Source of the DNA: Planctomycetota bacterium
GTDB taxonomy: Bacteria > Planctomycetota > Phycisphaerae > Phycisphaerales > UBA1924
Assembly (NCBI GenBank): GCA_018968885.1
Contig: JAGWZK010000010.1
Span: 1-64,000 of the forward strand
Length of the DNA stretch: 64,000 nucleotides
Direction: 5' to 3'
Shown here: one piece after another, positions 13,981 through 63,530 of the stretch
Numbering within the stretch: position 1 is the first letter of the stretch
Layout: every line of letters begins with the position of its first letter
The notes under the pieces: model-generated
The model's input: only the letters and a program-made list of their open reading frames with translations
Databases searched by the model: none
Told to the model about the DNA's origin: nothing
Program-made: the position numbers and the translations under genes

Positions 13981-15369
13981 GTGCCTACTGACTCTGCACC
14001 AACTCCGCTGAACACCACCACCTGCGATCTGGCGATTGTCGGTGCTGGCGCGGCAGGACTATTTGCGTCTATTTGGGCAGGGTTGACCGACCCCAGCATC
14101 TCCATCATCGCGGTCGACGGTGCCCGCAAGATCGGGGCCAAAATCCTCGTTGCCGGTGGCGGGCGCTGCAATGTCACGCACGCGGCAGTCTCTGAAACTG
14201 CGTACTACGGCTCGAGCCGCAACTCCATCCGCAACGTCCTACGTCAGTTTCCTGTGGAGAAGACCGTCGAGTTCTTTGCCAGTCGAGGCGTGACACTCAA
14301 AGCCGAACCCACCGGCAAACTCTTTCCCACCACCGACGATGCACACACCATCCTCGATGCGCTTCTCGCGGCTGTCAAGACAAGCCGTGTGCGGCTGTTG
14401 AACCCTTGGCGTGTCACGGGCGTTGAACACAGCGGCTCAGACTTTCTCATCGCTCGTGATACCGCCTTCGATCACGTCCCCGGCGATCCCGCATTCATCC
14501 GCGCTCGACGGTTGATTCTCGCCACCGGTGGTAAGGCGTTGCCCAGAACCGGCTCCGATGGGTTGGGTTACTCCTTTGCCAAAGCACTCGGACACACGCT
14601 GACGCCGCAAATCGTGCCCGCGCTCGTCCCTCTCACCCTTCAACAAAATGGCCAACAGAGCCACCCGCTTGTCACGCTCTCCGGCCTTGCGCTCCCCTGC
14701 ACACTCGAGGTCCGCGGTGGTACCAACAAGCGTCTGGCGGCATTCACCAACGACACTCTGCTCACTCATTTTGGCTTGTCCGGACCGGGGCCGCTGGATA
14801 TCAGCCGCTCCCTGCAAGCCGCACAAGCAACCGATGCGGGGGCGGCACTCTACATCAACTTTCTCCCCGGATACCTCACCGATGATCTGGATCAGATGCT
14901 GGCCACCGGCGCAGGCACATCGGTTGGTAACTTCGTCAGTGATCTCTCTCGCCGCAAGCCGCCACGCGAACCCTTGGAACTTGCCGAGGGAGTGACCGGG
15001 CTTTGCGATCTCCCCGAGCGACTAATCCGCGTGCTCTGCGCGATGGCCAACATCGAACCTTCCATGCCTTGCCATGCGCTCACCCGCGACAGCCGCAAGG
15101 CATTGTCCCGCACATTGACCGACCTGAAACTCCCGATCAGCGGCACGCGCGGTTTCACCTTTGCAGAAGTCACCGCCGGAGGCATCCCCCTCTCCGAAAT
15201 CCAACTCGCCACCATGGAATCGCGTGTGCGCCCCGGCCTGCACTTGTGCGGCGAAATCCTCGATGTCGACGGTCGCATCGGCGGGTACAACTTCCAATGG
15301 GCCTGGGCCAGCGGCTTTGTCGCAGGAAAGTCCGCCGCAATGGCACTCGGTCAACAATCCGCCACCTGA
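13981..15369 (+). CDS. BaiN/HI0933-family flavoprotein
   Basis: 462 residues starting at a GTG. The FAD-binding GxGxxG motif (LAIVGAGAAGLFASI) is at about residues 17-31. It is followed by the family signature KILVAGGGRCNVTHA, the second dinucleotide region LILATGGKALPRTGSDG, and the C-terminal motif DVDGRIGGYNFQWAWASG. Members are called aminoacetone oxidase family or BaiN-like; the substrate is mostly unknown. The stop is 2 bp before the aroDE start. Confidence 0.9.
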   Translation: MPTDSAPTPLNTTTCDLAIVGAGAAGLFASIWAGLTDPSISIIAVDGARKIGAKILVAGGGRCNVTHAAVSETAYYGSSRNSIRNVLRQFPVEKTVEFFASRGVTLKAEPTGKLFPTTDDAHTILDALLAAVKTSRVRLLNPWRVTGVEHSGSDFLIARDTAFDHVPGDPAFIRARRLILATGGKALPRTGSDGLGYSFAKALGHTLTPQIVPALVPLTLQQNGQQSHPLVTLSGLALPCTLEVRGGTNKRLAAFTNDTLLTHFGLSGPGPLDISRSLQAAQATDAGAALYINFLPGYLTDDLDQMLATGAGTSVGNFVSDLSRRKPPREPLELAEGVTGLCDLPERLIRVLCAMANIEPSMPCHALTRDSRKALSRTLTDLKLPISGTRGFTFAEVTAGGIPLSEIQLATMESRVRPGLHLCGEILDVDGRIGGYNFQWAWASGFVAGKSAAMALGQQSAT

Positions 15370-15371
15370 CC

Positions 15372-17087
15372 ATGACACGCCGCCCCCCCACCACACCCCG
15401 CACGCTCATCTGTGTCCCCATCATGGTGCACGATGTGGATGAGGCCTTGCATGATGCCCAGCGCAGCAAGAGTGGCGGCGCGGATCTGGTTGAGTTCCGC
15501 ATCGATGACTTCTTCACTGGAGATGCCCAGACCGCCGATCGCGAGGAACGCGAACTGCTGCGCCTCGTTGCGTCTTCCCCTTTGGCGTGCATCGTCACCT
15601 GCCGCAGCAAAGACGAGGGTGGCCACTACGACGGCACTGATGAAGCACGCATTTCCCTCTACGAGCGGCTAGGCACCGCGAGTGGCAAGATCGGCGATCT
15701 CAACTCTCATCCTCCCCGCTATCTGGATATCGAAGCGGCAACCTACCTGCGTTCGGCCAATCTGGCGATGAAAGTGAATCTGGCCGTCGCCGAGCGTGAT
15801 CGCGATGATGCTCCCTGGCTCATCGCTTCGATGCACGACTTTGCGACAAGACCACCGGACCTTTTGCGGCGGCTCGCCGCAGCGCGACAGATCGACAAGG
15901 CATCCGTCCTTAAAGTCGCGTATCGCGCTCGTTCGCTACGGGATTCGCTGGAATTGCTCGATCTGTGCCGCGAGGCTGACAGCCCCACAATCGCGCTCGG
16001 CATGGGCGAGTATGGCACGCTCTCGCGGATTCTGGCACCCAAGTTCGGCGGGTTTCTCACCTTCGCCTCGCTGGCTGCGCAGTCTGCGACTGCGCCGGGG
16101 CAACCAACACTCTCCGAACTCACTGATCTCTACCGGTTCAGATCCATCAAGCCCAGCACGCGCGTCTACGGCATCATTGGGTCGCCGGTAAGTCACTCGC
16201 TTTCGCCCAAAGTGCACAACGCTGGCTTTGAACTTCTCAAACAGGATGCGGTGTATGTGCCGCTGCCCATCGCGGCGAGTGATGACCTCGAAGCGTCGTA
16301 CATCAGCTTCAAAGCCACCATGTGGGATCTGATCCATCATTCCCATCTGAATTTCTGCGGGGCCAGCGTCACGCTACCTCACAAGGAGAATCTGGTGCGG
16401 CTCGCTCGCGCAGAGAAATGGAAGCTGGACACGATCAGCGATGTTTCGGGGAGTGCCAACACTCTGGTAGTAGATCGCAGCAACCCCGCGTTTCCTCGAT
16501 GTTCTGTCTTCAATACGGATGTTCGTGCGGTATCGGAGTTACTCGATCCTCACGGTGTCGCCATGTCGGGCGGAGCTGGACACTCTGGTCGGCCCAAGGC
16601 ACTTGTGATTGGTGCAGGCGGTGTGGGCCGCGCGATTGCTCATGGCCTGGCTCGTGACAATTGCCACGTCACCATCGCTAACCGCACCATCGACAAGGCC
16701 CAGGCGATCGTCAACTCCATCGCGCTCTCCGGATTCCCCAATCACGCTCGATCCGCGTATCTTGAAACCATCAAAGCCGAAGGATTCCACTTCATCATTC
16801 AGTGCACCAGCGTGGGCATGGTCGGCCCCAATCAGGATCAGACTCCGGTATCGCCCGAGTTCTGGAACAACGCAGGCAACGCGGCAGTTCTGGAGACCAT
16901 CTACACGCCTCGCGAGACGCCATTCGTCAAAGACGCCCTGGCCGCCGGATGCAGAGTGCACTACGGCCGCGACATGTTCATTCTGCAGGCACTCGCCCAG
17001 ATGATGCTGTGGGTGCCTGATCCAGACATCCCTTACGCCCCGCCGCCCGAACACCTCGCGGCGATCTACGAACGGCTGACGCGCTGA
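15372..17087 (+). CDS. aroDE: Fused 3-dehydroquinate dehydratase and shikimate dehydrogenase
   Basis: 571 residues covering two consecutive steps of the shikimate pathway. The first ~250 residues are a type I dehydroquinase: EFRIDDF, IASMHDF with the catalytic His, and SVLKVAYRA with the Schiff-base Lys. From about residue 270 comes AroE: YGIIGSPVSHSLSPKVHN, GASVTLPHKENL with the catalytic Lys, and the NADP Rossmann motif VIGAGGVGRAIAHGL. The start is the ATG at 15372 next to the flavoprotein stop. AroD-AroE fusions are known from plants and from Chlamydiae and Planctomycetes, so this supports the taxonomic guess. Confidence 0.94.
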   Translation: MTRRPPTTPRTLICVPIMVHDVDEALHDAQRSKSGGADLVEFRIDDFFTGDAQTADREERELLRLVASSPLACIVTCRSKDEGGHYDGTDEARISLYERLGTASGKIGDLNSHPPRYLDIEAATYLRSANLAMKVNLAVAERDRDDAPWLIASMHDFATRPPDLLRRLAAARQIDKASVLKVAYRARSLRDSLELLDLCREADSPTIALGMGEYGTLSRILAPKFGGFLTFASLAAQSATAPGQPTLSELTDLYRFRSIKPSTRVYGIIGSPVSHSLSPKVHNAGFELLKQDAVYVPLPIAASDDLEASYISFKATMWDLIHHSHLNFCGASVTLPHKENLVRLARAEKWKLDTISDVSGSANTLVVDRSNPAFPRCSVFNTDVRAVSELLDPHGVAMSGGAGHSGRPKALVIGAGGVGRAIAHGLARDNCHVTIANRTIDKAQAIVNSIALSGFPNHARSAYLETIKAEGFHFIIQCTSVGMVGPNQDQTPVSPEFWNNAGNAAVLETIYTPRETPFVKDALAAGCRVHYGRDMFILQALAQMMLWVPDPDIPYAPPPEHLAAIYERLTR

Positions 17088-17106
17088 TCGCGGCCTGAGA
17101 ACATCC

Positions 17107-17144
17107 AAAAAAAGAATGCGGGCCCGCCAAAGCGAGTCCCGCAC
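17107..17144 (-). terminator. Intrinsic terminator, minus strand
   Basis: On the minus strand TGCGGG and CCCGCA flank an inner CGC-TTTG-GCG, followed by TTCTTTTTTT. It ends the hsp20 or small-RNA transcript. Confidence 0.75.
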
Positions 17145-17300
17145 CCCGGAAGGAGAGAGCTCTTGGATCCACGTGGGGATTGTGTCATCCCACGACGTGG
17201 CATAGTTCTTACGCTCGAACCACCTGAGCGGTTCGCGCTGCTCTCTCCAATCTCCTCTCTCCGTACCTGAAGTTCGGGCAGGATTTTTCCCTACCCGTCT
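17107..17300 (-). ncRNA. Candidate structured RNA downstream of hsp20
   Basis: Between the hsp20 stop and aroDE lies a strongly folded segment. A 9-bp closing stem (17152-17160 with 17240-17248, GGAGAGAGC/GCTCTCTCC) encloses two hairpins: CCACGT/ACGTGG with inner GGGAT/ATCCC (17169-17200), and CGAACC/GGTTCG (17216-17235). A further hairpin (17276-17296) has a pair that is a G-U wobble only if the minus strand is the RNA. The segment ends in a minus-strand terminator with seven T. It could be a separate small RNA or the hsp20 3' UTR. It matches no RNA family that I recognise. Confidence 0.45.
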
Positions 17301-17323
17301 GACCTTTCTCACGTGTCTGACTC

Positions 17324-17785
17324 TCAGCGAATCTCGACCCTGCGCCCCTTCTCAGGCGTGATCTTGGTCAAGCGCAGCGTCAGCACGCCATCACGCAACT
17401 CAGCATCGACACTCTCAGGATCCAAGGTCTCGGGCAGAGCCAGAGATCGCGTCACCGTGCCGCTGTAGCGCTCGCGGCGGATCATTGTCTCATCGCTTGA
17501 GTCGGTGTTCGATTCACGCGTCGCCGTGATGGTCAACACGCGATCCTCCACCTCGACTTGCACATGCTCACGGGAAAAGCCCGGAAGCGATGCCCGCAGA
17601 ATGGTGTGAGTCGCGGTTTCAGAAATGTCCAGAGGCAGTGCTTCGCCACTGCGGGCGCGAGGCGCAGCAAAGCTGGTTCCGAAGAACGGCGCAAAGAAAG
17701 GATCTGAAAGCAGCGACTGTGCGACCACCGAAGGAACCGGTGCCGTGCGGGTGCTGACCAGACCGTTGCGAGTATTGCAATTCAT
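17324..17785 (-). CDS. Small heat-shock protein (Hsp20/alpha-crystallin)
   Basis: 153 residues. The alpha-crystallin domain spans about residues 50-150: LPLDISETATHTILRASLPG, VEVEDRVLTITATRE, then SLALPETLDPESVDAELRDGVLTLRL ending in the usual strand, with a short tail. It acts as an ATP-independent holdase in the cytoplasm. The ATG at 17785 has GGAGG eight bases upstream (CTGGAGGTTTGGAC); a longer frame from 17860 is less likely. No CIRCE-type operator was found upstream. The 3' side carries the structured RNA candidate and a terminator. Confidence 0.92.
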   Translation of the reverse strand: MNCNTRNGLVSTRTAPVPSVVAQSLLSDPFFAPFFGTSFAAPRARSGEALPLDISETATHTILRASLPGFSREHVQVEVEDRVLTITATRESNTDSSDETMIRRERYSGTVTRSLALPETLDPESVDAELRDGVLTLRLTKITPEKGRRVEIR

Positions 17786-18074
17786 GTCCAAACCTCCAGA
17801 ATATTGGTTCAATTTGCCGGAGTGGTCCACACCACCCGGATAGCTCAGGTATTGCAACACCCGTGCCAGACCAGATCCAGCCCATCAGGAACGTCCACTC
17901 TCATTTATCAAGGTGCCAACACACTTGGAATGCCACGGTTTCGTGCCGGAGTGACACCTGACTGACAGAGTGGCAGCGAAGCCCGGTCGATCACCTTTGC
18001 AAGTAGCTTCCTGCCGTTCCCAATCACTTTCCAGTCGAACCGCAACCCTGATTTCCCCGTATCCTCTGAAACTC

Positions 18075-43002: not shown

Positions 43003-45884
43003 TTGGGTGCTCCTTCCTGGATCGGCGCCAAGCGCAGCAGCCACAGCTCGCAGATCCCCCGCTCGGCAATACGCGCCTGCTCCATCGACGAATTCGCTCC
43101 GCTCCAAACCTGCGACACGCGGCTCACCACCTCTTTCACCCTGGCCTCGCGCGTGGGATCTTCGGTGACCATTGTGTACGCTGTCAATTCCAGACACGTC
43201 ATCTGATGAGCTAGAAAGACACGGATTTTTCCTGTGGAACTGGCCTTCTCGCGCTGCTGCCGCGCGGTCCAGCGTTGCGAAATCTCCGTAAGCGTTGCGT
43301 GCTCGCGCCCTGTCGCCGGCAGCGTCTCAGCAACTTTCATCATCCGCGTCGCCAGACGGTGAGCCGCCTCCTCGGGGTTCTGCACTGTGCCAGTGGCGAC
43401 CACTCCGCTGCGGACTTGGTACGCCTCGCCCATCTGCTCGGCCAAGGTGTCCACCACGCCAAACTCGCCCCCCGCCGCGATGGCCGTCAGCAGACGCTCG
43501 ACCAAGGCCCGGCGCGCGTACTCGCGCCAGCGCGGGTCATCGGTCGAGGGCATGGTCTGAATCGTGACAAAGTCCAAAAGTTCGTTGGTCTCGCGCGTGC
43601 GCGGCAGCGTGCCCACCAGGTCCAGCAGCGTCGCCAGCATCGGAGCCTGACCACTGAGAAACCTCACCCGGTCGCGTGCTCCCGCGCGCAGCGGCACACT
43701 CTGCCCACGAATCATCTCATTGACGATCACAAAACAGTCGCGTGGCCCAACCACCTCGGCACCACTCCCCACCGCGTTGAGCATCTCGCGTTTCTCATTC
43801 ACCGATGCGACCAAGTACTTGGCACCCCATTCACCGTCCGGCGGTCCGGGATCGAGAATCGAATTGGGCTTCACGGCCTCCAGCGCCTTTTGCACCATCG
43901 CCGCGGGCTCGATGCGTCGATCCAGCGCGAAGGAAGCTCTCTCGGGCTCTCCGGTCCACATCAGCCATGCTGCCTCGTTGATCCGCGCTGCGGCGACCGC
44001 TCCCGCGAGGGCCATCGCTGGACTTTGCGGCACACTGGCATCCGCCAAGAACTCCTTGGTCCAGGCCACCCAATCACCTTTGAGTGCATCCGCATCCTGC
44101 GAATCCACCATGCCCCAGGCCTTAGCGTATCGATCGCGCAGATCAGCCCGAAGATTCTCATGCGCTGCGGCGGGCACGACCAATGAGGTGTCGACGCCGC
44201 CAGATTCTGCCGGCTCCTGTGCCAAGCGCGCTGTGAGTGCGAACAAGCGCCCGGCGGTGATCTCTGGCGAAATCAGCCAGCGCAGCAGCCACTGGCGCGG
44301 AGGACCGGCAGTGGAGAAATCCAAGCGCGATGTGATGGCCTGGATGGATTCAAAGGCCTGCTTGTCGGCACTGGGATCGGGCCCGGTGCGAAGAAAATCC
44401 TCAAAGGGCACCAGCAGCACGAGCGACCGTCGCGACACATCGCCAGAGCCGCTCATATCCGCCGTCGCAAGCGCGGCATCGGCCCACTTGCCCCACGCGG
44501 CGCCCAGATCGGTGGTCGACGAAGTCGAGCCCCTCACCGCCGAGAGGTTGCTGGCCACCGCCTGCAAGCCGGATCGTGCGCCTGCTTCAAAGGTGGCATC
44601 GGAGGGAGTCGCCGAAACCCGCGTCAACTCGATGTTCACTGCGCTGCGCACTGCGGTGGGAAGATCACGCTCGCGCGACAGCCGCGCCAGCGCTCCAGAG
44701 GCAAAGACCGAAGGCCAGACACGTGGAGCGACTTCACGCGCGTCCACCGGTTGTCTCCACACTGTGGGGGCCATGATGGCATCGATGGCACCGCGACCCC
44801 AATCGGCATCGCGCGACAATGCGTACACCGCATCTACCACGCCATCGGTGAATGCGGCGATCTGATCCGGCTGCCACGTGGCCCAAGCACTTCCCGCCTG
44901 CTCAACCGCCAGCGCCAGTTGCCTCGAAGCCGCCGCGGGGTCAGTTGCGCCCACACTGCGAATCTCACGGACCTGGGTGAGGAGAGCGGTGGCATCGGTC
45001 ACACCGGACTTTGCGACGGTTGCTACGGCTCCATCTGTCGTTGCTGGCTTGGGCAGTCGTTCGCCATCTGCCGCAAAGAGGGTCCCCGGCAGGGGGGCAC
45101 GGTCCTGCTCGCGGACTGCGGGTGCTGGCACCTGTTGCTGCTTGGCCACCGGATTTGCAGGAACCTTGGTGCTTTCGCAGCGTGTGGCAGCAAAGCCGAT
45201 GATTGAGACGAGCACGATGGTGCCGCAGCCGATTCCGGCAATACGCACGCCGGTCTGCATCTTGCGATACGCCGGGTCCACCTGCTCACTGAGCACTGGT
45301 TTGGCCGTGGCTTCGGCTGCTGCCACGCTTTCGGCAAGTTCGCTGCGACGCGTCGGCGCTGGCGCAGCGACGGGACTTCCTGCACTCGATGCGACCTGCG
45401 CGAGTTGCTGAATCGATGCCCCAGTGTCGCGTGACATCGAGGCCAGCGCCAGCATGGAATCGCGATTCCACCCACCGTGCATCGCCATGACGCGGCGGGC
45501 CTCATCGTTGATCGGGTTTGGTTGTGCATCCCCCGCGGGCGAAAGTTGTGGCACAACCTCCACCGGCGCGTGCTCTGGATGCCAGTAGCGCAGTTGGGCT
45601 AGGCGAGTCTTTGGGTTCAACAACTGTGCCGCCGCGGCGTGGACAGCAAGACGAACCTGATCTGCCTCAGGAGTTCTGGCCTGGGGATGCCCATTGACGC
45701 GCATCAGGCGAGCTTCGAGCAAGGGTGGCACCAGACGATCGGCCTGCTCGTGTGCTGCGGGATCCAGCCCCATGAGCACGAAGGGGCCTTGCTCTTCGAC
45801 GTCCGGGCCCAGAAACCGCGCGATCGCGCTGATTGGTCGCGGCGCTGATGCCGGATCGGTGTTGTGTGGCTCGCTGGGTGGCAC
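42999..45884 (-). CDS. Large membrane-anchored protein with an N-terminal J-like domain, unknown function
   Basis: 961 residues, GTG start. Residues ~35-100 (FVLMGLDPAAHEQADRLV ... LLNPKTRLAQLRYW) have the helix pattern of a J-like domain found in planctomycete proteins, but no HPD motif. One membrane helix follows at about 212-234 (VRIAGIGCGTIVLVSIIGFAA), so the N-terminus is cytoplasmic and the ~720-residue remainder is periplasmic. That part is Ala-rich, helical and without motifs that I can name. It starts 15 bp after the 950-residue gene and overlaps the next by 4 bp. Confidence 0.65.
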   Translation of the reverse strand: MPPSEPHNTDPASAPRPISAIARFLGPDVEEQGPFVLMGLDPAAHEQADRLVPPLLEARLMRVNGHPQARTPEADQVRLAVHAAAAQLLNPKTRLAQLRYWHPEHAPVEVVPQLSPAGDAQPNPINDEARRVMAMHGGWNRDSMLALASMSRDTGASIQQLAQVASSAGSPVAAPAPTRRSELAESVAAAEATAKPVLSEQVDPAYRKMQTGVRIAGIGCGTIVLVSIIGFAATRCESTKVPANPVAKQQQVPAPAVREQDRAPLPGTLFAADGERLPKPATTDGAVATVAKSGVTDATALLTQVREIRSVGATDPAAASRQLALAVEQAGSAWATWQPDQIAAFTDGVVDAVYALSRDADWGRGAIDAIMAPTVWRQPVDAREVAPRVWPSVFASGALARLSRERDLPTAVRSAVNIELTRVSATPSDATFEAGARSGLQAVASNLSAVRGSTSSTTDLGAAWGKWADAALATADMSGSGDVSRRSLVLLVPFEDFLRTGPDPSADKQAFESIQAITSRLDFSTAGPPRQWLLRWLISPEITAGRLFALTARLAQEPAESGGVDTSLVVPAAAHENLRADLRDRYAKAWGMVDSQDADALKGDWVAWTKEFLADASVPQSPAMALAGAVAAARINEAAWLMWTGEPERASFALDRRIEPAAMVQKALEAVKPNSILDPGPPDGEWGAKYLVASVNEKREMLNAVGSGAEVVGPRDCFVIVNEMIRGQSVPLRAGARDRVRFLSGQAPMLATLLDLVGTLPRTRETNELLDFVTIQTMPSTDDPRWREYARRALVERLLTAIAAGGEFGVVDTLAEQMGEAYQVRSGVVATGTVQNPEEAAHRLATRMMKVAETLPATGREHATLTEISQRWTARQQREKASSTGKIRVFLAHQMTCLELTAYTMVTEDPTREARVKEVVSRVSQVWSGANSSMEQARIAERGICELWLLRLAPIQEGAPK

Positions 45885-63420: not shown

Positions 63421-63510
63421 CCCCTAATCCGCGGCAGCCGTCGCTTTTGCATGTACGAGAAGCTGAAGCGTGTTCTTCGCTTTCCGCCGCGAAGCGACGT
63501 CCGTCATGAG

Positions 63511-63530
63511 CCCGGGGCGTGAGCCCCGGG
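63511..63530. repeat. Possible REP-like palindrome
   Basis: The CCCGGGGCGTGAGCCCCGGG stem-loop is preceded by GAG and followed by GAAAC. Only one copy is seen in the window, so the repeat nature is inferred from its form. Confidence 0.35.

Follow-up and report, generated by a model that had tools for sequence, protein, structure and literature searches.

Gene context of the structured element

The window analysed here is a stretch of 64,000 nucleotides from a genome of 3.39 Mb in 52 contigs. It carries hsp20, encoding a small heat-shock protein whose ATG is preceded by CTGGAGG, and a convergent gene for a fused 3-dehydroquinate dehydratase/shikimate dehydrogenase (Table 1). The 236-nt gap between the stop codons of hsp20 (17324, minus strand) and aroDE (17087) contains only open reading frames (ORFs) that resemble chance, which agrees with the non-coding location given in a first-pass annotation made from the letters alone. 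Directly 5' of the aroDE fusion lies an HI0933-like flavoprotein gene (13981-15369, also plus strand), and the aroDE protein was matched at E 1e-40 in 97 of the 101 genomes searched. No tRNA or tmRNA was found within the 64-kb window, nor was there a match in it to the consensus CIRCE and sigma-32-like patterns.

Table 1. Features of the hsp20-aroDE locus, with positions numbered from the first letter of the window.
Feature	Position	Strand	Basis
Fused 3-dehydroquinate dehydratase/shikimate dehydrogenase (aroDE type), convergent neighbour	15372..17087	+	PF01487, PF08501, PF01488
Putative hsp20 3' UTR, 217 nt, stop codon to end of T tract	17107..17323	-	transcript end predicted from the terminator
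Predicted intrinsic terminator, G+C-rich stem-loop of 12 pairs with a bulge, then T tract TTCTTTTTTT	17107..17144	-	sequence, folding, pair probabilities
Closing stem of predicted three-way junction, 3' arm GCTCTCTCC	17152..17160	-	fold prediction
Junction hairpin 2, outer stem CCACGT/ACGTGG	17169..17200	-	pair probability 0.98 to 1.0
Junction hairpin 1, 8 pairs including one G-U	17216..17235	-	pair probability 0.92 to 1.0
Closing stem of predicted three-way junction, 5' arm GGAGAGAGC	17240..17248	-	pair probability ~0.85
Hairpin A, 5-nt loop, 9 pairs of which two are G-U, not followed by a T tract	17275..17297	-	fold prediction; pair probability >0.96 for 7 pairs tested
hsp20 (small heat-shock protein) CDS	17324..17785	-	PF00011 HSP20, E 6e-20; ORF list

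Predicted structure and terminator

All structural elements described in the first-pass annotation were recovered at their positions on the minus strand. The 9-bp closing stem was borne out, with nine Watson-Crick pairs between GGAGAGAGC (17248-17240) and GCTCTCTCC (17160-17152). Both hairpins enclosed by this stem exist as well, but the description of them as perfect holds only in part: hairpin 1 has one G-U pair, and in hairpin 2 perfect pairing is confined to the six outer pairs, which are followed by unpaired bases and an inner stem. The further hairpin (hairpin A) is present, with two G-U pairs among its nine pairs. Pairing probabilities are ≥ 0.92 for the helices other than the closing stem, and the predicted three-way junction appears thermodynamically well supported.

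The minus-strand terminator was also confirmed as a G+C-rich stem followed by a T tract. Its stem (17144-17116) has a one-base bulge and its tail TTCTTTTTTT (17116-17107) lies directly 3' of the stem on the minus strand only. The terminator hairpin (17145-17107) folds at -20.5 kcal/mol, a value that was equalled or exceeded in 2 of 200 shuffles. A simple terminator scan gave no report of the terminator at 17144-17107, probably because of the one-base bulge in the stem. The arrangement resembles an intrinsic (Rho-independent) terminator that ends a long 3' UTR, with a G+C-rich stem-loop and then a T tract located 3' of hsp20 on the same strand. Unlike the usual intrinsic terminator, the predicted one of hsp20 has a bulged stem, which ends 208 nt past the stop codon and is preceded by hairpin A and the junction.

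Fold strength relative to shuffled sequences

The minus strand (231 nt) folds at -106.5 kcal/mol, whereas its shuffles average -80.35 (z -4.96), and none of the 200 shuffles folded as well; the z-score of the plus strand is -2.27. On the minus strand the junction alone scores z -5.0, and the junction together with the terminator z -6.0, or -5.2 when repeated with fewer shuffles. The minus strand folds better than the plus strand in each piece tested, namely hairpin A (-14.6 versus -9.4 kcal/mol), the junction (-49.2 versus -47.0 kcal/mol) and the terminator (-20.5 versus -15.1 kcal/mol). A perfect 9-bp inverted repeat occurred in 40 of 500 dinucleotide shuffles (8%) of the 236-nt gap and, therefore, the closing stem alone proves nothing.

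The locus was also placed on a fixed grid of 1278 segments of 146 nt, spanning both strands of the 64 kb with 15 shuffles each. Nine of these segments have a z-score of -4 or lower, and two of the nine are 17101-17246, on either strand, at the hsp20 3' UTR locus. The minus-strand segment 17101-17246 (z -4.28) ranks 7th of 1278. In its best register, which was chosen, the 3' UTR element reaches z -5.2, below all grid segments. Segments within long ORFs, such as 44201-44346 on the minus strand, reach -4.4 to -4.8. The 3' UTR fold is not exceptional.

Searches for homologues

The earlier statement that the element has no likeness to known RNA classes is supported by an Rfam search, which yielded no family at the gathering cut-off here (best weak match 15.9 bits versus 58.7 needed, E 1.1). 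In a DNA search of 61 close, 163 family and 251 order genomes, all matches other than the window itself were 44 nt or shorter. Two of the four matches in the 163 family genomes fall on the terminator part, and in family genome G067 a match to the terminator part with 82% identity over 43 nt starts approximately 25 nt past the end of a same-strand ORF. Short DNA matches to hairpin 1 (query positions about 62 to 104) recur across many genomes, and many of the weakest matches in the 61 close genomes fall on this hairpin. When 20 of the matching loci were checked, one of them in the own genome, each was located inside an open frame of ≥ 324 codons. The matches at these 20 loci were discarded as homologues and read as chance, arising from coding sequence in G+C-rich genomes.

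A structure model (R1) was derived from the single sequence of the element, entered twice, and holds no evolutionary information. R1 finds the window itself at 129.7 bits and has matches in 4 of the 163 family genomes, including the own genome. The three others are weak (23 to 26 bits, E 0.05 to 0.22), have deletions or mismatched pairs, and each falls within a 432- to 628-codon open frame on the match strand; all three, one of which is locus L070, were therefore taken as chance. Among 347 class genomes, only the window was returned at E 0.05. The model was further run on 64 sources, comprising 60 hsp20 or aroDE loci, the three weak-match loci and the window, and its best match on the 60 loci had an E-value of 3.6. 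An aroDE protein scan of genome contigs identified two loci with 43 to 47% identity, at which the structure model found nothing. Both loci carry a Phycisphaerae label, which makes a planctomycete of this type a likely source of the window. An Hsp20 protein scan of viral contigs returned none, and a literature search found no paper on this 3' UTR element. As far as these searches can tell, the junction appears to lack a convincing homologue among the 163 family genomes, none of which is listed under the same genus, and the 347 class genomes; weak homologues could be lost because stricter filters were used in searches of more than 40 genomes.

Regions downstream of hsp20 in relatives

An hsp20 match at E 1e-10 was found in 52 of 81 family genomes, own genome included. 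For the 29 best other hsp20 loci, the downstream 240 nt were folded (only 79 nt for one, where the contig ends), and the 22 closer ones (L034-L055) were taken into a terminator scan. A hairpin with ≥ 3 T after it is present in 18 of the 22, and the remaining four have no hairpin by the criteria used. Half of the scanned loci (11 of 22) carry a strong terminator-like stem, with ≥ 10 pairs and ≥ 4 T in the next 10 bases. In those 11 relatives the stem ends 52 to 129 nt past the stop codon, compared to 208 nt in the studied genome. Neither the folding of the 29 loci nor the structure model applied to the hsp20 loci recovered the multi-hairpin structure in these relatives. Flanks of approximately 1.5 kb, some of which are shortened by contig ends, were without an aroDE match at all 29 of the other hsp20 loci. 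Together with the nearer terminators, this absence indicates that, as far as sampled, the gene neighbourhood and the long 3' UTR are both specific to the lineage.

Interpretation of the element

The element is located directly 3' of hsp20 on the same strand; the gene positions and the strand bias of the fold thus agree with the earlier placement of a minus-strand 3' UTR after a heat-shock gene. These features and the terminator-like end suggest that hsp20 transcription would stop there. We consider it likely that the element is a 217-nt, lineage-specific structured 3' UTR of hsp20 with an intrinsic terminator, in which the upstream helices act as filler. As read from the sequence, RNA polymerase would pass the hsp20 stop codon and halt at the G+C-rich hairpin and T tract at 17144-17107, while hairpin A and the three-way junction would ride along as lineage-specific filler. 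These helices would probably at most protect the 3' end of the mRNA from exonucleases and keep hsp20 and its convergent neighbour aroDE apart. They may have evolved alongside the local gene order, as in other bacterial 3' UTRs, and not as a conserved RNA gene. One paper (PMC7821165) describes bacterial 3' UTRs as often longer than 100 nt, reports that sequence conservation among close relatives is lost around the stop codon, and presents long, fast-changing 3' UTRs as common in bacteria. For Rickettsia, another paper (PMC3027695) indicates that most of the convergent transcripts examined had no specific termination site. Two findings weigh against the 3' UTR reading: the fold lies about 5 standard deviations beyond the shuffles, more than an idle spacer needs, although some segments within long ORFs reach -4.4 to -4.8, and four of the 22 relatives are without a hairpin, so that a near terminator is not universal. 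If the reading as a 3' UTR is correct, the locus serves mostly as a calibration: an RNA with several striking hairpins, set between two convergent genes, may be no more than a common 3' UTR that carries a terminator.

A different function would follow if the hsp20 mRNA were cut near the stop codon and the terminator-protected piece acted in trans under heat stress as a 3' UTR-derived small RNA (sRNA), comparable to CpxQ. The host is a stress gene, the fold is strong and the long T tract suits a stable 3' end; nevertheless, we regard this as unlikely. No promoter-like site for the element was found with a sigma-70 pattern, the only one used, though a processed RNA needs none. Hfq (PF17209) had no match in this 92%-complete genome; the control was positive in 5 of 14 genomes. 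Beyond the terminator, no convincing homologue was detected by DNA or model in the 163 family genomes, by DNA in the 251 order genomes or by model in the 347 class genomes. For 3' UTR-derived sRNAs, conservation beyond the terminator is usual and not required, and Hfq in the genome is usual and not universal. The precedent, CpxQ, is cleaved from the cpxP mRNA in enterobacteria, and is marked by an exceptionally conserved region in these bacteria and by Hfq dependence (PMC9438474). Like CpxQ, the element would derive from the 3'-terminal part of an mRNA for a stress protein and finish in its terminator. In contrast to CpxQ, which is about 60 nt long versus 217 nt here, it has no conservation, no Hfq match in its genome and no sign of processing. 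The dedicated small RNA proposed in the first-pass annotation is thus not supported, given the lack of a promoter-like site, of a DNA or model homologue and of Hfq, and given relatives without the structure. Because the absent homologues leave no covariation comparison, a young lineage-specific RNA keeps a small chance. That a genus-specific, Hfq-independent three-way-junction sRNA from the 3' end of the hsp20 mRNA tunes the heat response of this Phycisphaerae-type planctomycete seems very unlikely; an sRNA of this kind would mean that RNA takes part in the heat response of a bacterium in whose genome no Hfq match was found here.

The 3' UTR might instead act in cis on hsp20 itself, either by pairing to the 5' UTR or by controlled decay. 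An 11-bp stretch of the 3' UTR, CTTCCGGGGTG, is complementary, if G-U pairs are allowed, to the Shine-Dalgarno stretch TATTCTGGAGG, and the simple duplex score, which ignores internal folding, was matched by only 3 of 300 shuffles. However, the co-folding gain is -2.6 kcal/mol once internal structure is included, with 168 of 200 shuffles equal or better, the predicted joint structure has no pairs between the two UTRs, and the longest complementary run was ≥ 11 in 63 of 200 shuffles. Pairing between the 5' and 3' UTRs was rejected on the basis of co-folding, being no better than in shuffles when internal folding is counted, and cis regulation is judged quite unlikely. Finally, the 9-bp stem, with arms about 79 nt apart, could be read as the terminal inverted repeats of a repeat or mobile-element remnant, and the gene neighbourhood does differ from that of the relatives. 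The own genome has only one copy of the element, with next best matches of 28 and 21 nt, and plasmids and phages gave no match, which disfavours such an origin and makes it highly improbable.

Other structured sequences in the window

Two further structured sequences were observed on the minus strand. The ribosome-binding site and start codon of hsp20 lie within an inverted repeat, GTTGCAAT ... ATTGCAAT (17764-17861), which is a possible 5' UTR thermometer candidate with no Rfam match. Its fold is only modestly better than that of shuffles, of which 9 of 200 folded as well (z -1.98), and heating is predicted to open the Shine-Dalgarno sequence only slightly, with an unpaired fraction of 0.19 at 20 °C and 0.34 at 50 °C. 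At 63485-63530, a match to Acido-Lenti-1 RNA (RF01687) was found with 40.8 bits. This region forms a G+C-rich hairpin (plus-strand sequence GCCCGGGGCGTGAGCCCCGGG). RF01687 has nine matches in the own genome at E 0.001, five of which exceed the cut-off; this copy number, together with the hairpin, would suggest a REP-like repeat dispersed in the genome instead of a single RNA gene.
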